Virus record (IMG/VR): IMGVR_UViG_3300047554_000623
Coordinates: 1 to 49,784 of that record
Length of the DNA stretch: 49,784 nt
Source of the DNA: a virus
Strand: one strand, 5' to 3'
The notes below the pieces were generated by a model. That model had not been told where the DNA came from. It worked only from the letters and a program-made list of their open reading frames with translations, and searched no databases. Position 1 is the stretch's first letter; each line of letters opens with the position of its first letter. Shown piece by piece: positions 1-49,784 of the stretch. Position numbers and translations under genes: made by a program.

Positions 1-107
1 GACAAAGGAGGTCTGAACCATGTTGGCAGCAATCGTAACAGTGTTGTCCGTACTCGCGCAGTTGGCCGGCGGTCTGGCCCTACTATGTTTTGCGGCGTGG
101 CTAATCG
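1..107. repeat. terminal direct repeat, left copy
   Basis: Bases 1-107 are identical to 49678-49784. The repeat covers the SD and the first 88 bases of the small membrane protein gene. A partly identical internal copy starts at 2158, and that identity runs past base 107, so the end match could come from circularity or from this gene duplication. Circularity is favoured because joining the ends puts csrA copy 2 (49505-49693) directly before this gene, the same order seen internally. Confidence 0.9.
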
Positions 108-370
108 CGTGCCTATTCGATTGGTGGCCGGAGCAGCTTCCGCCTAACGTTGTGATCCCAATTGCAGACAAGTTTGACGACGACGGCACGGCTTACCTTC
201 GCCTGGAGCTGGACAGCATCGACTTCCGCGACGTGCAAAGGGCGGTCACTCGGAGGCAACTGCGGCGGGATTGGCCAGCCTACACCGGAGATGGAATGTC
301 CAATGTGGCGGGGACGGCTATCGCGGAAATTTGCCGAGAGTGGATGGCACGAGAGGTGGTGAGGAAGTAG
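20..370 (+). CDS. small membrane-anchored protein, copy A
   Basis: A 116-residue protein of unknown function. Residues 1-32 form a long hydrophobic segment (one long or two tight membrane helices) ending in FDWW. The rest is a soluble, charged cytoplasmic or periplasmic part of about 80 residues ending MAREVVRK. The start is set by a strong SD (AAGGAGGT) 9 bases before ATG. A nearly identical paralogue lies at 2175-2528; differences cluster at the C-terminus (MAREVVRK against MAKEGVRLK). In the circular genome csrA copy 2 lies immediately upstream, and its stop is 3 bases before this ATG, so the two genes are probably co-translated. The family is not recognised. Confidence 0.85.
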   Translation: MLAAIVTVLSVLAQLAGGLALLCFAAWLIACLFDWWPEQLPPNVVIPIADKFDDDGTAYLRLELDSIDFRDVQRAVTRRQLRRDWPAYTGDGMSNVAGTAIAEICREWMAREVVRK

Positions 371-394
371 CGGCATCGCACGGCCGCAAGGTTT

Positions 395-581
395 CTGCTG
401 GAGCCTAACGAGCAAATGATGGACCAGCAGATCGGCCGAGCTACCTGAAGGCTCGGCAACGTCGTGGCGGCGTGGACGAGTTCCACGTGAGGCACAGGGG
501 GAGCGGCTCGTTCGATCCGAGCGGCCAATAGTCTGGTGACTGCACTGCCAGACCGAAGCCGGTGCAAGTCCGGCCCACGAC
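395..581 (+). ncRNA. structured RNA leader with tRNA-like outline
   Basis: The gap 371-596 has no plausible protein but holds a run of strong helices: 395-401/424-430 (7 bp), 435-441/451-457 (7 bp), 471-476/482-487 (6 bp), 506-510/518-522 (5 bp, 7-nt loop), 531-536/548-553 (6 bp), and 558-562/570-574 (5 bp, loop TGCAAGT). A 7-bp helix, GTCGTGG 461-467 with CCACGAC 575-581, closes the last four hairpins into one multi-branch domain, and its 3' strand abuts the 558-574 arm as in a tRNA. It is too long (121 nt) and its D-arm and T-loop are too unusual for a normal tRNA. It ends 3 bases before an SD, so a cis-regulatory leader or riboswitch-like element is the best guess. The element is not recognised. 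Confidence 0.6.
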
Positions 582-593
582 ATTGGAGGGACT
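575..593. repeat. 19-bp direct repeat, copy 1
   Basis: CCACGACATTGGAGGGACT occurs here and at 839-857. It contains the 3' strand of the closing helix of the RNA element (CCACGAC) and an SD (GGAGGG). The two copies bracket the gene at 623-835. Confidence 0.9.
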
Positions 594-596
594 TGG

Positions 597-626
597 ATGG
601 CACGGGAGAAGGTGAGGGTGAAATGA
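597..626 (+). CDS. 9-residue leader peptide MAREKVRVK
   Basis: A 10-codon ORF with a good SD (GGAGGG, 585-590) and spacing, directly after the structured RNA. Its stop TGA overlaps the ATG of the next gene (ATGA at 623-626), so translation of the leader probably feeds ribosomes into the membrane protein gene. The peptide resembles the C-terminal tail of the duplicated membrane protein (MAREVVRK at the end of 20-370, MAKEGVRLK at the end of 2175-2528), so it may be a leftover 3' end of a third copy rather than a peptide with its own job. Confidence 0.5.
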   Translation: MAREKVRVK

Positions 627-835
627 GTACAACGATATGGCTTGTTGCAGTTGTGGCCGCTTTCCTGTCTGGATTATTCGCACAGCGCGTGAGGGGCTTT
701 GCGAGGCGTATCTACTGGCACACGAAACTCGGTATTTGCTGGCGGTACAGTCCGAGCGGATACCGTGAGACGCGACACGGAACCACAAGCGATTTTTGCC
801 GGCGCTGCGGTCACCCTGCTGGCTACCATGATTGA
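623..835 (+). CDS. small single-pass membrane protein with C-terminal Cys/His motif
   Basis: A 70-residue protein. After MSTT comes a hydrophobic helix (about residues 5-20), then a basic stretch (QRVRGFARRIYW) that should stay in the cytoplasm, then a short tail with CRRCGHPAGYH that could bind zinc. The start at 623 is supported by the ATGA overlap with the leader peptide and by GGTGAGGGTG just upstream. The gene lies between two 19-bp direct repeats and has no counterpart in the second copy of the duplicated block, so it looks like an insertion. Function unknown. Confidence 0.65.
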   Translation: MSTTIWLVAVVAAFLSGLFAQRVRGFARRIYWHTKLGICWRYSPSGYRETRHGTTSDFCRRCGHPAGYHD

Positions 836-838
836 TGG

Positions 839-857
839 CCACGACATTGGAGGGACT
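839..857. repeat. 19-bp direct repeat, copy 2
   Basis: Exact copy of 575-593. Here it supplies the SD (GGAGGG) for the HNH-type gene at 862. The CCACGAC at 839-845 could also pair with 461-467 in the structured RNA. Confidence 0.9.
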
Positions 858-861
858 GACG

Positions 862-1362
862 ATGCGAGAACGATACGACGCCTACGGTTATCCCTGCTGG
901 CCCGGTGAGCGGGACTATGCGACAGCCGACGACATGCCATACGTCACGAGATTAGGTGAGACGATGCCGAAAGTAAAAATTCTGCTATTCTCGCATCCGT
1001 CGCAATGGTGCTGGGCCTGCGGGGCTGGTCGATTCAATCCGCCATCGTGGTGGTTGCTGCCGTGGTATATCGAGCGAGCGCACCTATCGGCAGGATCGGG
1101 AGGGATGCAACGCATCGAGGACGAACGGGCCGTTGTGCTGCTGTGCTCGTTGTGCCATCGGCTGCACCAGCATCATGACGAAGCGGTGAAAATTTACGGC
1201 CGCGAGTTCCCGGCGTTGACAGATGCAAATGTTCTGTGGCTCAAGCGGGAACGAGATCCCGATAATTGGGACTGGGAAGCTATTAGGTCGTGGTGGATTG
1301 GAGAACCACCGGAGCCGGTTAAGAGTGAGTGGTATGAGATCAAGTATTCTGAAAGGCATTGA
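862..1362 (+). CDS. HNH-type nuclease-like protein
   Basis: A 166-residue protein. Residues 50-53 (CWAC) and 95-99 (CSLCH) look like the zinc knuckles of an HNH nuclease; ERAHL (71-75) would supply the first catalytic His, and CHRLHQHH (98-105) the later ones. A clear central Asn is not obvious, so activity is uncertain. Start chosen at 862 because GGAGGGACTGACG precedes it; an ATG at 832 in the same frame lacks an SD. Residues 1-15 (MRERYDAYGYPCWPG) are shared exactly with the gene at 2525, showing that the two proteins derive from one ancestor or share a swapped N-terminal module. Phage HNH proteins serve as homing nucleases or assist packaging; this one is far from the terminase. Confidence 0.7.
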   Translation: MRERYDAYGYPCWPGERDYATADDMPYVTRLGETMPKVKILLFSHPSQWCWACGAGRFNPPSWWLLPWYIERAHLSAGSGGMQRIEDERAVVLLCSLCHRLHQHHDEAVKIYGREFPALTDANVLWLKRERDPDNWDWEAIRSWWIGEPPEPVKSEWYEIKYSERH

Positions 1363-1374
1363 AAGGGGAGCGAC

Positions 1375-1677
1375 ATGGCCAAAGGCGATAGACGTTTTAC
1401 GTTCCATGTTATTCGCAGCGGTCAAGCGGGACCTCACAAGGACTCCGTAACTGAGTGCGAGGTATTGGTGGAGCACGTGCCGTATAAAGGCGACGGCAAA
1501 GAGTTCGTACCTAACCACGAGTTGAACGAAATGATCGTCAAGGCGGTCTGCAAGGGATTCGTTCCTTTCAAAGAACCAAATGACAATCCCGACTGGGCCG
1601 ATCCGCAGTTGTCGTCATGGAGTAACGTTGGAGGCGGTCGGTGGCGATTTGCTGTTACAAGGGCATTTACTGATTGA
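1375..1677 (+). CDS. hypothetical protein
   Basis: A 100-residue soluble protein with a basic N-terminus (MAKGDRRF) and an even mix of strands and helices predicted by eye; no motif recognised. The SD GAAAGGGGAG lies 5 bases before ATG, one of several AAGGGGA(G/C)C-type initiation sites used in this genome. It lies 12 bases after the HNH-type gene and 40 bases before csrA copy 1, so it is probably in the same transcript. Confidence 0.7.
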   Translation: MAKGDRRFTFHVIRSGQAGPHKDSVTECEVLVEHVPYKGDGKEFVPNHELNEMIVKAVCKGFVPFKEPNDNPDWADPQLSSWSNVGGGRWRFAVTRAFTD

Positions 1678-1717
1678 AAGAAGAACGGGAAGACGAACCA
1701 ATTTGAAAGGAATCACG

Positions 1718-1909
1718 ATGCTAGTTTTAACGCGTAAATACGGAGAGAAAACCCACATCGGTGACGTTGTGGTTACCGTGGTTGAAATCGAGAACAATCA
1801 GGTGCGGCTCGGCATCGAGGCACCGCCGGACGTGCTGATTCTACGTGGAGAGCTGTTGGACCGAGATCCGGGCAACACACGCAATTTGAAAGGGCGAACC
1901 AATGACTGA
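1718..1909 (+). CDS. csrA: CsrA/RsmA-family RNA-binding regulator, copy 1
   Basis: A 63-residue protein beginning MLVLTRKYGEK with an IGDVVVTVVEI strand, LGIEAPPDVLILRGEL and a short tail, which is the CsrA signature over the family's normal length. CsrA dimers bind GGA motifs, often in hairpin loops over an SD, and block or alter translation. The conserved residues for RNA binding (R6 region and the I/V-x-R-x-E-like end, here LILRGEL) are recognisable. The leader GAAGACGAACCAATTTGAAAGGA is shared with copy 2 with few changes and puts GGA inside the SD (AAAGGA), so autoregulation is plausible. Its final codons contain AATTTGAAAGGG, the SD of the next gene. Copy 2 is at 49505. Confidence 0.95.
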   Translation: MLVLTRKYGEKTHIGDVVVTVVEIENNQVRLGIEAPPDVLILRGELLDRDPGNTRNLKGRTND

Positions 1910-2171
1910 AGCAGAAAAACGACAAATGTGTCGAGGGTGTCGCGACGACTACTACAACCAGCCTGGCAACAGCACCGACGGCAAATGCTGGTGCTTGGAA
2001 TCGGCGAAGGTCGTGCAGCGGATCAAGGTTGGCATCTGGCAAAACCCGCCGTACGAAAAGCGTTTGCAAACGACGCTATCGTGCCATAATCCCAAGGGTA
2101 TGGCATGGATCAAAGAGGACGACTGTCGAGTCGTCGGCAACCAAACTCGCAATCGGACAAAGGAGGTCTGA
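1902..2171 (+). CDS. Cys-rich hypothetical protein
   Basis: An 89-residue protein with CRGCRDDYY and CWCLE in the N-terminal half and a later CHNP, so it may bind a metal. It overlaps the end of csrA copy 1 by 8 bases and takes its SD from inside csrA. Its last 11 residues (GNQTRNRTKEV) are the same as the end of csrA copy 2, because the DNA carrying the SD for the following membrane protein gene has been duplicated as a unit. The gene has no counterpart beside copy 2. Function unknown. Confidence 0.75.
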   Translation: MTEAEKRQMCRGCRDDYYNQPGNSTDGKCWCLESAKVVQRIKVGIWQNPPYEKRLQTTLSCHNPKGMAWIKEDDCRVVGNQTRNRTKEV

Positions 2172-2174
2172 ACC

Positions 2175-2528
2175 ATGTTGGCAGCAATCGTAACAGTGTT
2201 GTCCGTACTCGCGCAGTTGGCCGGCGGTCTGGCCCTACTATGTTTTGCGGCGTGGCTAATCGCGTGCCTATTCGACTGGTGGCCGGAGCAGCTTCCGCCT
2301 AACGTTGTGATCCCAATCGCAGACAAGTTTGACGACGACGGCACGGCGTACCTCAAGCTAGAGCTGGACAGCATTGACTTTCGAGACGTGCAAAGGGCGA
2401 TCACGCGGCGGCAACTGCGGCGGGATTGGCCAGCCTACACCGGAGATGGTATGTCGAACGTGGCGGGGACGGCTATCGCGGAGATTTGCCGGGAGTGGAT
2501 GGCGAAAGAGGGAGTGAGGTTGAAATGA
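2175..2528 (+). CDS. small membrane-anchored protein, copy B
   Basis: A 117-residue paralogue of 20-370: the DNA is identical from 2158 to about 2275, then diverges mostly at third codon positions. It has the same N-terminal hydrophobic segment (residues 1-32) and soluble domain, and ends MAKEGVRLK. The silent nature of most differences suggests both copies are kept by selection. SD AAGGAGGT precedes the ATG. The stop overlaps the next start as ATGA at 2525-2528. Function unknown. Confidence 0.85.
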   Translation: MLAAIVTVLSVLAQLAGGLALLCFAAWLIACLFDWWPEQLPPNVVIPIADKFDDDGTAYLKLELDSIDFRDVQRAITRRQLRRDWPAYTGDGMSNVAGTAIAEICREWMAKEGVRLK

Positions 2529-2743
2529 GAGAACGATACGACGCCTACGGTTATCCCTGCTGGCCTGGCAGCCAGGACTATTCCACGGCCGACGAGTACA
2601 AGCCGCTTGCACGCGAATGGATGCCACGGCAATTAGGAGGCGGCGACGCACTGCCCGACACGGAGAACCGGACGGAACCCGGGCAGTGCGATTTTCTGGC
2701 TGAGGAATTGCCCGCTGTTGATATTTCCCGGATCACGGGCTAG
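2525..2743 (+). CDS. short paralogue of the HNH-type protein N-terminus
   Basis: A 72-residue protein starting MRERYDAYGYPCWPG, the same 15 residues as the gene at 862, followed by an unrelated tail with no HNH motifs (GDALPDTENRTEPGQ and an acidic end). The ATGA overlap with the preceding gene decides the start. It completes the duplicated block csrA / membrane protein / MRERY protein. It may be a decayed or domain-swapped copy, or a stand-alone interaction module. Confidence 0.7.
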   Translation: MRERYDAYGYPCWPGSQDYSTADEYKPLAREWMPRQLGGGDALPDTENRTEPGQCDFLAEELPAVDISRITG

Positions 2744-2751
2744 ATTGTTGG

Positions 2752-2772
2752 CGCGGTGCTGGACACACCGCG
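2752..2772 (+). promoter_or_regulatory. hairpin with GGA loop, candidate CsrA site
   Basis: CGCGGTG (2752-2758) pairs with CACCGCG (2766-2772) around the 7-nt loop CTGGACA. A GGA in a small hairpin loop is the preferred CsrA binding form. It lies 9 bases before the first GAGGATGCAA. Confidence 0.5.
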
Positions 2773-2780
2773 AAATTTCA

Positions 2781-2912
2781 GAGGATGCAAAAACCATGAT
2801 CGATCAAATCTGCTATCTACGCTCGCGTGGCCTTGCATCCTCGCGTTCAGCCCCGCCCCCTGTCCACACTTCCGGGGGCGGGGTCTGTTTTCACTTTTCC
2901 AAGAGGATGCAA
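2781..2912 (+). promoter_or_regulatory. candidate translational switch, leader of replication operon
   Basis: GAGGATGCAA occurs at 2781-2790 and 2903-2912, each acting as SD for an ATG (2796 and 2917). Between them TTGCATCCTC (2833-2842) is perfectly complementary to both over 10 bases, so only one SD can be masked at a time. The AGGATG core also matches the centre of the CsrA consensus. A related GGATGCAACC precedes the prim-pol start at 5947. Confidence 0.5.
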
Positions 2913-2936
2913 CACCATGAAAATCACGACGGGTAA
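2796..2936 (+). CDS. possible leader ORF over the replication-operon attenuator
   Basis: A 46-codon ORF beginning MIDQICYLRSRG with the SD AGAGGATGC, same as the next gene. It runs through the GC-rich hairpin at 2851-2883 and ends 20 bases inside the Sak4-like gene. Because most of its length is dictated by the hairpin, it is more likely a regulatory leader than a functional protein, and it may not be translated at all. Confidence 0.3.
   Translation: MIDQICYLRSRGLASSRSAPPPVHTSGGGVCFHFSKRMQHHENHDG
2851..2898 (+). terminator. intrinsic terminator or attenuator
   Basis: CCCCGCCCCC (2851-2860) and GGGGGCGGGG (2874-2883) form a perfect 10-bp hairpin with a 13-nt loop, followed by TCTGTTTTCACTTTT. 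It sits inside the leader before the replication operon, so read-through would decide expression of the operon. Confidence 0.7.
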
Positions 2937-3714
2937 GCAAGCCTTACCGCGCCGAATCCTGCTGTATGGCCAGCATGGCATCGGCAAATCAACTTGGGCT
3001 GCGAGTGCTCCGTCCCCTATCTTTCTCAACGTCGAAGACGGGATCAACGATCTGGACGTGGCCCGGTCCGAGCACTTGAAGGAACTGGGCCAAGTCATTG
3101 ATGCGATATCGTGGCTCGTGCAAAACCCGCATGAGTTCCAGACGGTAGTAGTCGATACCATCGACTGGCTGGAGCACTTGATTTTCCACTGCGTGGCGAA
3201 GGAAGCCAGCAAGGGCAATATTTCGGACATCGGCTACGGCAAGGGCTATGAAGCAGCGAAAGACAAGTGGGACTTCCTGCTGCGCGGCATGGACGTGCTG
3301 AGAACGCAACGCGGTATGATGGTTATTTTGTTGGCTCATGCCAAGGTAACGCGTTTTGAGAATCCCGAGACCGACGCCTACGACCGCTACGACTTGGACC
3401 TACATAAGTCGTCAGCCGGCATGATTCAGGAGTGGTGCGACGAAGTGCTGTTCGCTTCGTCGCGGGTGTTCACCCGGACGGAAGAACTCGGCTTCGGCAA
3501 GGAACGCAAGATCGCCGTGGGATCTGGTGAGCGATTTATCAGGACGACGGAGACGGCGGCAGCCGTGGCAAAAAACCGCTTACGTCTTCCACCGGAATTG
3601 CCGCTCGACTGGAATGAGTTCGCCAAGTTTTTGCCGGCTAAGCCGGCTGGCATGGCGACCAACAATATCAATGGTGTAGTAGTGAACGGAACTTCTAAAA
3701 GCGAGGGTAAGTAA
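2917..3714 (+). CDS. Sak4-like RecA-fold recombination ATPase
   Basis: A 265-residue ATPase of the AAA_24/Sak4 type found in phage replication-recombination modules, where it works with an SSB-like protein in strand annealing or exchange. Walker A is GQHGIGKST (residues 18-26); VVVDTIDW near residues 76-83 is the Walker B strand. A short C-terminal tail after residue 245 is Asn/Gly-rich. Start at 2917 is chosen for the AGAGGATGC SD; an ATG at 2827 in frame lies upstream of the attenuator and has no SD. It is followed after 2 bases by the DUF669 gene, the usual partner order. Confidence 0.85.
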   Translation: MKITTGKQALPRRILLYGQHGIGKSTWAASAPSPIFLNVEDGINDLDVARSEHLKELGQVIDAISWLVQNPHEFQTVVVDTIDWLEHLIFHCVAKEASKGNISDIGYGKGYEAAKDKWDFLLRGMDVLRTQRGMMVILLAHAKVTRFENPETDAYDRYDLDLHKSSAGMIQEWCDEVLFASSRVFTRTEELGFGKERKIAVGSGERFIRTTETAAAVAKNRLRLPPELPLDWNEFAKFLPAKPAGMATNNINGVVVNGTSKSEGK

Positions 3715-3716
3715 TC

Positions 3717-4205
3717 ATGGCTGACATTAGTGGACTAGGCTTTGACGCGAACAAAGTACAACCGAACGACGCGTTTGACCCGCTGCCGGCTGGCGAATAT
3801 GACGCGGTAATCGTCGCCAGCGAGCGGAAGAAAACCAACGCCGGAACTGGCGAGTATATCAAACTGCAACTGCAAATTCTGAGCGGCCAGTTCCAAAACC
3901 GCCGGCTGTTCGACAACCTGAACCTGTGGAACCCAAACGACAAGACGGTGCAGATTGCCCGCGGTACGTTGTCGAGCATTTGCCGGGCGGTGAACGTCTT
4001 GACACCCAACGATACGAGCGAACTGCACAACAAGCCCCTGCGAATTAAGGTCACGGTCAAGGACGATCCTGAGTACGGACCAGGCAACGAAATTAAAGCC
4101 TACAAGCCACGACAAGCGGCGCCGCAACATGTGACTCCGGCCAGTGCTCCGGTCAGTGTTCCAGCGACGCAACAAGAGCAGCGAGCAGAGCCGTGGCCGT
4201 GGTAA
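3717..4205 (+). CDS. DUF669 single-strand DNA-binding-like protein
   Basis: A 162-residue protein with the DUF669 pattern: FDPLPAGEYDAVIVASERKK, then GTGEYIKLQLQILSG and NRRLFDNLNLWN. DUF669 proteins sit next to Sak4 or other annealases and are thought to be SSB-like. The C-terminus is a disordered Pro/Ala/Gln-rich tail ending EPWPW; acidic/aromatic tips are typical of SSB interaction tails. The gene starts 2 bases after the Sak4-like gene and its stop shares one base with the helicase start (TAATG). Confidence 0.85.
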   Translation: MADISGLGFDANKVQPNDAFDPLPAGEYDAVIVASERKKTNAGTGEYIKLQLQILSGQFQNRRLFDNLNLWNPNDKTVQIARGTLSSICRAVNVLTPNDTSELHNKPLRIKVTVKDDPEYGPGNEIKAYKPRQAAPQHVTPASAPVSVPATQQEQRAEPWPW

Positions 4206-5932
4206 TGCACGAAACGCCGGTGCTTCGGTGGTATCAAGACGAGGCTTGCAAAGCGGCATGGACGTCGCTTTGCACGTCTTCGGGTAACCCGGTCATTGTG
4301 CTACCTACCGGTGCCGGCAAGTCACTCGTGATCGCCGAGCTATGCCGCGCGGCGGTACAGGATTACCGGGGCCGCGTGATTGTGCTGGCCCACCGCAAGG
4401 AACTACTGGAGCAAAACGCCGACAAGATCAATCGCTTGCTGCCGTGGGGTATCTCGCTTGGAATGTACTCAGCCGGCCTCAAGAGCCGCAAGACCGACAC
4501 CGATATCGTGGTGGCTGGCATCCAGTCAGTGTTTAAGCGGGCGGCGGAATTCGGGGAACGCCATATGATTCTCTGCGACGAATGCCATTTGGTCCCGCGC
4601 GACGGCGAAGGGATGTATCGGACTTTTCTGGACGATCTGCGAGCAATCAATCCGAAGCTCCGCATGGTCGGCCTGACGGCGACACCGTTCCGCACGGGCG
4701 AGGGGGCGTTGTGTCGGCAGGATGGATTGTTCCAGCGAATCTGCTATTCAGCCGGGATCCAAAAACTAATTGCCGACGGCTACCTGTGTCCAGTTACCAA
4801 CCGAGTCGGTGAATCGTCGGTCGATACATCGGGCCTGCATATTCGCGGCGGCGAGTTTGTGCCGGGCGAAGTCGAGCGGCTGTTCGACTTCGGGCCGCAA
4901 GTGGAAAACGCGGCCCGTGAAATCGTGGCCAAGTCGGCAGGACGACATAGCGTGCTGGTGTTCTGCTCGGGCGTGTCGCACGCGGGACACGTCGCGGCGG
5001 CGATTGCGGCGCTAAGCGGCGAGCGGTGTGGAGTGGTAACAGGTGACACACTGCCGATGGAACGGGCCAACTTGCTGGAGCAATTCAAGCGGCAGCAATT
5101 GCGATTCCTGTGCAACGTGGACGTTCTGACAACGGGCTTCGATGCTCCCAATATTGACTGCATCGCGATCTTGCGGGCCACCATGTCGCCCGGGCTGTTC
5201 GCTCAAATGTGCGGCCGTGGTTTGCGGATCGACGCGTCAAAACAAGATTGTCTGATTTTGGATTTCGGAGAGAACATTCAACGGCATGGCCCGATTGACG
5301 CCTTAGACTACGGCAAGGACCGACAGAAAAGCGGACTGGGAGACGCACCGACAAAGACATGCCCGAATTGCGGCGAGACGGTGGAACTGTCAGCCAAGTC
5401 GTGCGAGTGCGGCTGGATCTTCCCGCCACCCGAGAGGACACCGAAACACGGCGAACAGGCCGATACCCAAAGCGATGTACTGGCCAAGCCCGAGTCCTGG
5501 GAAGTCGTCGGCGTGGATTGGATGCGGCATCGCAAGCGAAAAGCGGAACCCGGCACGCCGGACACGCTGCGGATTGATTACCTGTGCCAACCTATGGGCA
5601 GATACCGTGGCGCTGACGGAGGCGGGAACATCTCGGAGCAAGTGATTAGTGAGTGGGTATGTCTAGAGCATCCCGGCGGATACGCGTACAGCAAGGCCGT
5701 CAAGTGGTGGCGGCAGCATAGCGTGGCACCGGTACCGAGCGGGATTGACGATGCCATTCGTTTGTGGCGGTGCGGCGCGGTGGCAATGCCAGCCACGATT
5801 GAGACGATCCGCGACGGCAAGTGGTATCGGATCACGGGCCGGCGGCTGGACGAACTGCCGACTGAGTGGAGCGAGGAACCGTCGGAAGGTGAGACGTGGG
5901 AAACGGTCGACGATGAGGAACTGGCTTTCTGA
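4205..5932 (+). CDS. DEAD/DEAH-type superfamily 2 helicase
   Basis: A 575-residue helicase of the phage Ssl2/RadD-like group. Walker A LPTGAGKS is at about residues 33-40, motif II DECH at 125-128, LTATPF at about 158, and the C-terminal RecA lobe has GFDAPNID and the arginine motif QMCGRGLR. Cys386, Cys389, Cys400 and Cys402 form a zinc ribbon after the helicase core, followed by a 160-residue accessory domain. Start at 4205 is taken from the TAATG overlap; a GTG at 4193 is possible. It would unwind DNA during phage replication or recombination. Confidence 0.9.
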   Translation: MHETPVLRWYQDEACKAAWTSLCTSSGNPVIVLPTGAGKSLVIAELCRAAVQDYRGRVIVLAHRKELLEQNADKINRLLPWGISLGMYSAGLKSRKTDTDIVVAGIQSVFKRAAEFGERHMILCDECHLVPRDGEGMYRTFLDDLRAINPKLRMVGLTATPFRTGEGALCRQDGLFQRICYSAGIQKLIADGYLCPVTNRVGESSVDTSGLHIRGGEFVPGEVERLFDFGPQVENAAREIVAKSAGRHSVLVFCSGVSHAGHVAAAIAALSGERCGVVTGDTLPMERANLLEQFKRQQLRFLCNVDVLTTGFDAPNIDCIAILRATMSPGLFAQMCGRGLRIDASKQDCLILDFGENIQRHGPIDALDYGKDRQKSGLGDAPTKTCPNCGETVELSAKSCECGWIFPPPERTPKHGEQADTQSDVLAKPESWEVVGVDWMRHRKRKAEPGTPDTLRIDYLCQPMGRYRGADGGGNISEQVISEWVCLEHPGGYAYSKAVKWWRQHSVAPVPSGIDDAIRLWRCGAVAMPATIETIRDGKWYRITGRRLDELPTEWSEEPSEGETWETVDDEELAF

Positions 5933-5946
5933 GAACGGATGCAACC

Positions 5947-8175
5947 ATGCTGCTCGAAACTACCCGCCGATACATCGCCCGGGGCTTTTCCGTCGTCCCG
6001 ATCCCGGCGCGGCAAAAAGGGCCGACGTACAAGGGCTGGCCGGAACTGAGAATCACGGACCCGATAGGCTGGTTCGACGAGTCGAGCAACGTCGGAATTA
6101 TCCTAGGGCCCGCCAGTGGCATGGTGTGCGTCGATCTGGACCACCCGCTGGCGGTCGACCTGGCGGAAAGTTTCCTACCACCGACTGGCATGGTGGCCGG
6201 ACGTGGGGAGCGGCCGCGCTGCCATTGGTTTTACCGGGTCACGGGACCCATCGAGAACAAAAAGCACAAGCACAAGCGGCAGACGATCTGCGAGATCCTG
6301 GGGGAAGGCAACCAGGTAGTTGCCGGGCCGTCGATCCATCCGAGCGGCGACCGCTACGACATTGTGGACGGCGAGCCCGCGACTGTGGACGGGCACGAAC
6401 TAGAGGCAGCAGTGTACGCGTTGTTTTGCGCGGTGCTGGCCGAATTGGGTGAGTCGATGCCGACGATGACAGGTAATGGCAAGCCAACCGGCACGGCCAG
6501 CACGCCCACCGACGGAGCACCGGGCACCGATTACGATCAGCGGGGAGACGTGCGGAGTCTGCTGGTCAAGCACGGCTGGACGCCGCTCTTTATGAGCGGC
6601 GACAACGAGCACTGGCGGCGACCCGGCAAGGCCTGGGGCAGCTCGGCGACGTTGCGGGACTGCAAGCTGTTTTACTGCTTCACGTCGTCCACGGAACTGG
6701 AAGCCTACCGCTGCTACGGTCCGTTCGGGCTGTATGCGAAGCTCGAGCATGGCGGCGATTACCGGGCCGCCGCGGATGAACTGCGGCGGCAGGGGTACGG
6801 TAGCGAATTGCCTGACGTGAACTTGTCGGCGATCACGAGCCAGGACATCGCGAGCCAGACGATCACGAGCCAACCCAAGCCAGACGACGACGACGAGGAT
6901 CCGGAACCGCTGGACGACTTCGGCGGGCTGGTCGGGGAGTTCCCGCCAGAGTGCCTGCGACCGCCGGGGCTGCTTGGTGATCTAGTCGACCACTGCTTGG
7001 CAACGTCCCGCTATCCGCAACCAGAGTTGGCTTTGGCTGCCGCGCTGGCGATGGTCGGAACCATCACGGGCCGCAAGGTGACGGACGAATTTGGAACCAG
7101 GACGAATGTCTACGTTTTGGGTCTAGACGAGACGGGGACCGGCAAGGAACACGCCCGACAGGTGAACAAAGAGCTGCTGGTGCGGGCCGGCGTCGAGAAA
7201 ATGCATGGCTCGGAACGGGTGGGGTCACATGCCGGGATCGTCAACGCCGTTCACGAGTCGCCAGCCATCCTGATGCAGTTGGACGAGATTGGCCGCTTAC
7301 TTGCGACCATGAAAGACCCGCGCAAGGCCCCGCATCTCTACAACTGCATCACAGTCCTGATGCAGCTTTACTCCTCGTCGGCAACCATCTGGAAAGCTGA
7401 CGCCTACGCGGACAGCAAGAAGGTCAAAGTCATCGACCAACCCCATTTGTGCGTTTACGGGACAGCCACGCCGGATTCATTTTGGCACAACCTGAGTACC
7501 GAGAACATCGCCGAGGGATTGGTAGGGCGGCTGATGGTGTTCGAGGGCCGGGGCTATTCGGTGGACATGCAAAAGCCGGCTCGAGCTGAGCTGCCCAAGG
7601 ATCTGATCGATGCCGCCCGCTGGTGGCTGGAGTACAGGCCGGCCGGCGGGAACCTGGGCGGCGACGAGCACCCCAAGCCGTCGGTAGTCCCGCACGATCC
7701 GGCCGCCGAGCGGCGATTCATGGGGCACATTGCGGCGATAAACGCCAAGCGGAAGACGGAAAGCAAGCTCCGGGCGGCGCTGTGGAGCCGCAGTGGGGAG
7801 AAGACTGCCAAGCTGGCCTTGATTCATGCCTGCTCACGCTCCAGGACGCTGCCCATTGCGATTGAGCTGGCTGACGTGGAATTCGGCATCCAACTGGCCA
7901 ACTGGGTCACCCGTCGCATCCTAGCGAGTTGTGGCGACCATGTGAGCGAGAACGAGCACGAGGCCAAGGTCAAGCGGTTGCTGTCGATCGTCGGAAATGG
8001 ACGGATCACGATGAATCAACTGACCCGCAAAACTCAGTGGCTCAAGGGCCGGGAGCGGCTGGAAATCGTCCGGGATTTGATCGGCTGCGGACTACTGAAC
8101 AGCGAGATAATTGCGACCAAAGGGCGGCAAAAAACGGTATTGTTCCGTCAAAAAACAGCCTTGAGAAAAGGATGA
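5947..8175 (+). CDS. prim-pol and helicase fusion, replication protein
   Basis: A 742-residue protein. Residues 1-160 are an archaeo-eukaryotic-type primase-polymerase domain: VDLDH (62-66) has the metal-binding Asp pair, followed by RCHWFYR (91-97) and the VVAGPSIHPSG motif (124-134). After a linker (about 200-320, Asp-rich around DDDDEDPEPLDDF) comes a DUF3987/VirE-like helicase domain with a Walker A-like loop DETGTGKE (about 394-401) and QLDEIG (about 444-449). A winged-helix-like end (about 670-742) may bind the origin. The initiation site GGATGCAACC resembles those at 2781 and 2903. This is probably the phage's main priming and unwinding enzyme; no DNA polymerase gene is seen, so host polymerase is likely used. 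Confidence 0.88.
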   Translation: MLLETTRRYIARGFSVVPIPARQKGPTYKGWPELRITDPIGWFDESSNVGIILGPASGMVCVDLDHPLAVDLAESFLPPTGMVAGRGERPRCHWFYRVTGPIENKKHKHKRQTICEILGEGNQVVAGPSIHPSGDRYDIVDGEPATVDGHELEAAVYALFCAVLAELGESMPTMTGNGKPTGTASTPTDGAPGTDYDQRGDVRSLLVKHGWTPLFMSGDNEHWRRPGKAWGSSATLRDCKLFYCFTSSTELEAYRCYGPFGLYAKLEHGGDYRAAADELRRQGYGSELPDVNLSAITSQDIASQTITSQPKPDDDDEDPEPLDDFGGLVGEFPPECLRPPGLLGDLVDHCLATSRYPQPELALAAALAMVGTITGRKVTDEFGTRTNVYVLGLDETGTGKEHARQVNKELLVRAGVEKMHGSERVGSHAGIVNAVHESPAILMQLDEIGRLLATMKDPRKAPHLYNCITVLMQLYSSSATIWKADAYADSKKVKVIDQPHLCVYGTATPDSFWHNLSTENIAEGLVGRLMVFEGRGYSVDMQKPARAELPKDLIDAARWWLEYRPAGGNLGGDEHPKPSVVPHDPAAERRFMGHIAAINAKRKTESKLRAALWSRSGEKTAKLALIHACSRSRTLPIAIELADVEFGIQLANWVTRRILASCGDHVSENEHEAKVKRLLSIVGNGRITMNQLTRKTQWLKGRERLEIVRDLIGCGLLNSEIIATKGRQKTVLFRQKTALRKG

Positions 8176-49504: not shown

Positions 49505-49693
49505 ATGCTCGTTTTGACCAGAAAATACGGCGAGAAAACATACATCGGTGACATCGTTGTCACGGTGGTGGATATCACGGACACGCAAGTGCGGATCGGT
49601 ATCGAGGCACCGCCGGACGTGCTGATTCTACGGGGCGAACTGATCGGCCGAGAGCCTGGCAACCAAACTCGCAATCGGACAAAGGAGGTCTGA
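49505..49693 (+). CDS. csrA: CsrA/RsmA-family RNA-binding regulator, copy 2
   Basis: A 62-residue CsrA: MLVLTRKYGEKTYIGDIVVT, then VRIGIEAPPDVLILRGELIG. It differs from copy 1 at about ten positions (TY/TH, DITDTQ/EIENNQ and the tail). Its leader (GAAGACGAACCGATTTGAAAGGA) is nearly that of copy 1. Its last 11 codons are the same DNA that ends the gene at 1902-2171 and include the SD of the membrane protein. Two csrA copies may allow heterodimers or different targets. Confidence 0.95.
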   Translation: MLVLTRKYGEKTYIGDIVVTVVDITDTQVRIGIEAPPDVLILRGELIGREPGNQTRNRTKEV

Positions 49694-49784
49694 ACCATGT
49701 TGGCAGCAATCGTAACAGTGTTGTCCGTACTCGCGCAGTTGGCCGGCGGTCTGGCCCTACTATGTTTTGCGGCGTGGCTAATCG
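49678..49784. repeat. terminal direct repeat, right copy
   Basis: Identical to 1-107. Merging the two copies closes the genome at 49677 unique bases. Confidence 0.9.
49697..49784 (+). CDS. small membrane protein copy A, 5' part cut by window end
   Basis: The first 29 codons of the gene at 20-370 (MLAAIVTVLSVLAQ and on), after SD AAGGAGGT. It is the same gene as 20-370 if the genome is circular, not an extra copy. Confidence 0.85.
   Translation, partial: MLAAIVTVLSVLAQLAGGLALLCFAAWLI

Follow-up and report, generated by a model that had tools for sequence, protein, structure and literature searches.

A probable RNA attenuator with complementary hairpin loops before the replication operon of a csrA-bearing phage

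The window, meaning the whole 49,784-nucleotide stretch of viral DNA analysed here, contains a four-gene replication operon that opens with a sak4-like gene, preceded by a leader rich in hairpins and repeated SD motifs. The operon had been recognized from its sequence as Sak4/SSB/helicase/prim-pol, and these gene calls hold by Pfam. The features discussed below are as follows.

1718..1909, + strand: csrA copy 1 (Pfam), 1.2 kb upstream of sak4
2718..2746, + strand: sigma70-like promoter TTGATA-17-TAGATT, a promoter-like match at the same position as in related leaders
2752..2772, + strand: hairpin H1, CGCGGTG-CTGGACA-CACCGCG, with a 7-bp stem and a 7-nt loop
2781..2842, + strand: hairpin H2, SD1 (2781-2790) paired with the anti-SD (2833-2842), -20.3 kcal/mol
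2781..2790, + strand: SD1, GAGGATGCAA, at SD distance from the ATG of the leader ORF (2796)
2796..2936, + strand: candidate leader ORF, 46 aa, overlapping the start of sak4
2833..2842, + strand: anti-SD, TTGCATCCTC, the exact reverse complement of GAGGATGCAA
2851..2883, + strand: H3, a terminator-like GC-rich hairpin just 5' of sak4, with arms CCCCGCCCCC/GGGGGCGGGG and loop TGTCCACACTTCC
2884..2899, + strand: U-rich tract after H3, UCUGUUUUCACUUUUC
2903..2912, + strand: SD2, GAGGATGCAA, at SD distance from the ATG of sak4 (2917)
2917..3714, + strand: sak4-like gene (Pfam AAA_24), first gene of the replication operon
3717..4205, + strand: DUF669 SSB-like gene (Pfam), replication operon
4205..5932, + strand: helicase gene (DEAD/ResIII; Pfam), replication operon
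5947..8175, + strand: prim-pol gene (Prim-Pol+DUF3987; Pfam), replication operon
49505..49693, + strand: csrA copy 2

The original prediction was that this operon is wired to the phage's own CsrA, and all the sequence features on which it drew are indeed present: two phage csrA genes (at 1718 and 49505), a GGA hairpin with a 7-nt loop at 2752-2772, the SD repeated at 2781 and 2903, and a related GGATGCAACC at 5937, 5' of the prim-pol ATG at 5947. It missed the inverted TTGCATCCTC copy, the H3 hairpin with its loop complementary to that of H1, and the promoter-like sequence at 2718-2746. The window also has a 107-nt terminal direct repeat (1-107 and 49678-49784), which points to a genome that is circular or terminally redundant; joining the ends across this repeat would put csrA copy 2 about 3.1 kb upstream of sak4. 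A block comprising csrA and MLAAIV (window 1718-2528) is present twice, across the terminal junction. Elsewhere, positions 370-600 are non-coding and stem-rich (z -1.9), without an Rfam match, and adjoin an ORF with HNH-like Cys/His motifs that gave no Pfam hit.

The leader can be read in order from its promoter. The promoter-like site matches at 9 of 12 positions, with one such site found in the leader against 0.1 expected from shuffles, and because its -10 element ends 5 nt 5' of H1, H1 would form the 5' end of the transcript. The H1 loop (CTGGACA, 2759-2765) has the GGA inside it, and six of its bases, TGGACA, are complementary to TGTCCA in the loop of H3, giving six potential kissing pairs. 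H2 occupies the place of the H2 hairpin in related leaders. H3 has a predicted energy of -26.3 kcal/mol in the default fold of the leader, and a scan of the window found a terminator-like site ending at 2883; the space between H3 and sak4 is too short for a promoter, which places H3 within the leader. The window thus has hairpins H1, H2 and H3 in that order, a GC-rich H3 with a U tract, and then the RBS and start codon. In resampled leaders, a hairpin of the H1 type with six loop bases matching the H3 loop arose with P 0.0027, an inverted match over 10 nt to the SD region with P 0.0035, and an 11-nt direct SD repeat with P 0.0001. Neither the window nor any of eight loci (L003, L106 and L108 among them) matched an Rfam covariance model at the gathering threshold, nothing relevant appeared at E<=5 in window 1-3000, and a comparison of the leader DNA with phage records returned nothing of note.

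The same layout recurs in related phages. Among Sak4 relatives gathered from viral and bacterial contigs, those of L003/L004 and L106/L107/L108 have a sak4 leader in which H1 is followed by a small H2 and then by H3, a strong terminator that immediately precedes the RBS; the H1 and H3 loops are complementary over 7-9 nt, with different sequences. The related leaders precede sak4, a primase-like gene (PriCT_1, DUF3987) or a third gene, and in nearly all of those catalogued the -10 element ends 3-6 nt 5' of H1. Terminators with a loop partner occur at nine distinct places in the contigs of the clade and at none in the reversed control, and the few matches outside the clade are weak and differ in kind. 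When promoter, H1, H3, complementary loops and U tract were all required at once, 11 places, one of them in the window, were recovered from 3.4 Mb of clade contigs, against none from 3.4 Mb of reversed clade sequence or from two sets of other contigs of 3.4 Mb each. Since the window was known when the thresholds were set, the evidence lies in the zero background and not in the hit to the window itself. Six-nt kissing alone is unspecific, occurring by chance in a handful of 211 leaders; the promoter and terminator context makes it specific. The window copy is the weakest of the set: it has six kissing pairs where most others have 7-9, its H3 loop is 13 nt long, and its U tract is weaker and less pure than those of its relatives. 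L105 has a terminator 5' of sak4 for which a kissing partner was not found.

Kissing-hairpin leaders are also seen in L356-L377, L413, L350 and L351, before a primase gene or an MRDDEQEPIP gene, with both loops swapped together between relatives.

The pairing between the loops can be followed in the alignment of the primase leaders, which contains three loop types (GTAGCAG/CTGCTAC, GTACGAG/CTCGTAC and ATGCGAC/GTCGCAT). Every cell of this alignment of trimmed equal-length pieces is paired (100%), a figure biased towards the structure by pieces that were cut and aligned with it in mind. Two-sided changes depend much less on the structure-guided alignment, and these affect 11 of the 22 pairs and five of the seven pairs of the kissing helix; no shuffle out of 500 matched this covariation, and slid controls fell far lower. 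Moreover, the fit of H1 loops to the H3 of their own leader averages 7.2 nt, compared with 3.1 for the H3 of other leaders. As an independent check, 18 contigs were picked out by an H1 pattern in which the loop sequence was left unspecified, and in all of them the exact complement of the loop follows downstream, most of the 18 repeating the same few loop types. The covariation was shown only in the primase leaders; a search for near relatives of the window leader found none, and L005, its Sak4 sister, was not seen with the element.

Taken together, these observations make it likely that the region from about 2718 to 2916 is a promoter plus 5' leader that functions as an RNA attenuator for the replication operon, with RNA folding, and not mainly phage CsrA, probably operating the switch. 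Its layout and loop complementarity can be read directly from the sequence, and the proposed kissing pairs are further backed by covariation in relatives. Transcription would start at H1, and H1, H2 and the terminator-like H3 would fold in order; the H1 loop could then kiss the H3 loop, and H3 would either stop transcription about 20 nt 5' of sak4 or permit passage. CsrA would not be required for such an attenuator. How might the kissing relate to termination? We infer that H3 ends transcription and that the strength of this stop depends on kissing, which probably stabilises H3. Against the attenuator reading, no antiterminator structure was identified, and kissing alone does not melt H3. The best reading is that the leader belongs to an attenuator type absent from Rfam, with the window as a divergent member to which an SD toggle has been added.

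The pT181 attenuator precedes a replication gene, and in ColE1 RNAI/RNAII and similar pairs, 7-nt fully complementary loops kiss in trans. Full complementarity over 7 nt is shared with the leaders considered here, in which the kissing is predicted to occur in cis. The pT181-type attenuators (PMC4878617) resemble the present leader in that contact of a hairpin loop with another RNA loop decides transcription; they differ in that their kissing partner is an antisense RNA, while here both loops lie in one leader and one of them belongs to the terminator itself. Transcription attenuation and kissing loops are already known; what found no match in Rfam or in the literature searched is a conserved leader, before several replication genes, whose 5'-end hairpin pairs with the terminator's own loop. 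Since both loops are exchanged jointly between close relatives, the mechanism can be tested by two-base swaps.

The second control layer proposed for the window phage would be H2, which there joins a second copy of the sak4 SD to its complement. The anti-SD is complementary to SD1 at 10 of 10 positions and, extended as 2828-2842, to the SD2 region (2903-2917) at 13 of 15. In the default fold SD1 is paired with the anti-SD and has an access of 0.08, while SD2 has an access of 0.38; constrained folding with SD1 blocked, as by a ribosome, shifts the anti-SD to SD2, whose access drops to 0.008. Folding alone thus predicts a toggle: with SD1 free, SD1 would hold the anti-SD and sak4 would be translatable, and with SD1 occupied, by a ribosome on the leader ORF or by a protein, the anti-SD would move to SD2 and sak4 would be shut. 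Because no relative carries the SD/anti-SD pair, the toggle has no support from covariation. None of the 210 other sak4 leaders has an SD/anti-SD toggle at 10 nt, and among the 211 there are four besides the window with an 8-nt match, near the chance level. A search of all viral contigs for the GAGGATGCAA...TTGCATCCTC pattern gave one match, in an unrelated coding gene of L303, which we attribute to chance.

In the cat/erm attenuators and in IncI/IncB repY-repZ, a short leader ORF lies over an anti-SD that can hide the main SD. The window leader is alike in that its ORF spans an anti-SD able to hide the sak4 SD, and unlike them in that this anti-SD also matches the ORF's own SD and that the leader has no known inducer, stall site or ORF relatives. 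It is nevertheless conceivable that translational attenuation or coupling of this kind acts by itself, with translation of the leader ORF deciding the pairing of the anti-SD with SD2, and with H1 and H3 incidental. The anti-SD falls within codons 13-16 of the ORF, the ORF overlaps the sak4 start, the toggle appears in constrained folds, and a Pro-Pro-Pro encoded in the 5' arm of H3 could slow a ribosome inside that hairpin. However, the ORF has no Pfam match and may not be a gene, the default fold buries SD1, and a transcript ended at H3 would be without the ORF's stop codon; the anatomy and folding fit a cat/erm-type attenuator in part, with no conservation. This explanation also leaves the layout common to the relatives unaccounted for, and we consider it quite improbable. 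An explanation at the level of DNA, in which the GAGGATGCAA copies are protein-binding sites (an operator or iteron) near a replication origin, could point to the three copies of this 10-nt motif, two in direct and one in inverted orientation, that lie within 130 bp beside the replication genes. It is highly improbable, considering that both direct copies stand at SD distance from an ATG, that the spacing is irregular, and that the presence of hairpins, a promoter and a U tract suggests action at the RNA level.

The proposal that dimers of the phage CsrA span the GGA loop and an SD, thereby repressing or retiming translation of the replication operon, bears on the same SD motifs. It is favoured by the two csrA genes of the window phage, by the presence of csrA beside sak4 across one Sak4 clade, and by the retention in both phage CsrAs of L4 and R44 (compared with E. 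coli CsrA). In addition, Pseudomonas RsmA binds an RBS oligonucleotide, PA1300 GGAGGAUGCAC, in vitro (PMC4066749), and this sequence is almost identical to the leader SD, so that CsrA binding at SD1 or SD2 is possible. AGGATG occurs twice in the leader against 0.03 expected, although this is one duplicated motif. The number of GGA motifs, in contrast, is at the chance level (three seen against 3.2 expected, with no strict A-N-GGA), and a GGA lies near 33 of the 46 gene starts in the window; the 11-nt direct repeat of the SD does go beyond chance (P about 1e-4).

The published CSRA_TARGET rules (PMC4066749) give a similar picture. An A(N)GGA overlapping the SD is found, as AGGA at both SD1 and SD2, which likens the leader, with its PA1300-like SD, to the CsrA/RsmA-repressed leaders of cstA, pgaA and glgC (PMC4066749). 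The rules fail on the number and arrangement of sites, which in the window are too few and too widely spaced by comparison with those leaders: there are two primary sites where at least three sites are called for (three primary, or two primary plus two secondary), and they lie 122 nt apart where at least two pairs 10-60 nt apart are called for. The loop GGA is isolated within CUGGA and would be a "secondary" CsrA site at best. Moreover, GGA is absent from every other H1 loop in the related leaders while the loop-loop complementarity is kept in all of them, and kissing with the terminator accounts for the H1 loop better than a CsrA site does. At the sak4 RBS, A(N)GGA is rarer in csrA-bearing relatives (9/18) than in csrA-less ones (91/113; p 0.013, uncorrected for relatedness among sequences that are not independent). 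We therefore regard control by CsrA bridging as unlikely; of the original prediction, the regulatory leader and, as a matter of gene neighbourhood, the link to csrA are supported, and the case for CsrA sites is not.

An extension of the attenuator reading would give both the terminated RNA and CsrA a part. Terminated leaders (about 140 nt in the window and about 100 nt in relatives) would carry two mutually complementary loops and could act in trans on new transcripts, so that expression of the replication genes falls as leader RNA builds up, with the conserved neighbouring CsrA tipping the switch, here by occupying SD1. This too is unlikely; if true, it would amount to phage copy-number control without a separate antisense gene.

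In 18 of 23 informative non-redundant members of the Sak4 clade, csrA shares the strand of sak4 and lies 0.3-2.4 kb upstream of it, and the clade has support of 100/99 in a Sak4 tree of 49 rows, which does not hold all representatives. The 113 informative representatives without a neighbouring csrA include five in the clade, the rest lying outside as far as they were placed, and no csrA-bearing representative was found outside the clade. This fixed neighbourhood across a phage clade is a defined setting in which to study the function of phage CsrA; a 2020 survey found csrA in about 1% of phages (PMC7366521). The clade loci include L105, L107, L113, L117, L118, L122 and L125. One bacterial genome was found with such a csrA-sak4 prophage, a betaproteobacterial MAG of 4.2 Mb (L183, G039), in which the prophage csrA is the only csrA match; this host may be without a csrA of its own.

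Other elements recur near sak4 as well. In L050, L051, L054, L058, L059 and L068, a different GC-rich element, roughly GCGCCCGGGCGGC..GTGGCGGGTCCA..CGACGGCCAC..CCGCCCGGGCGC, lies 5' of the gene, with no Rfam match in the two loci searched (L058 and L068). Finally, tRNA-like sequences (GGCAGGG...GGTTCGACTCC...CCTGCC) are found beside or upstream of sak4 in L025, L043, L048, L058 and L071.
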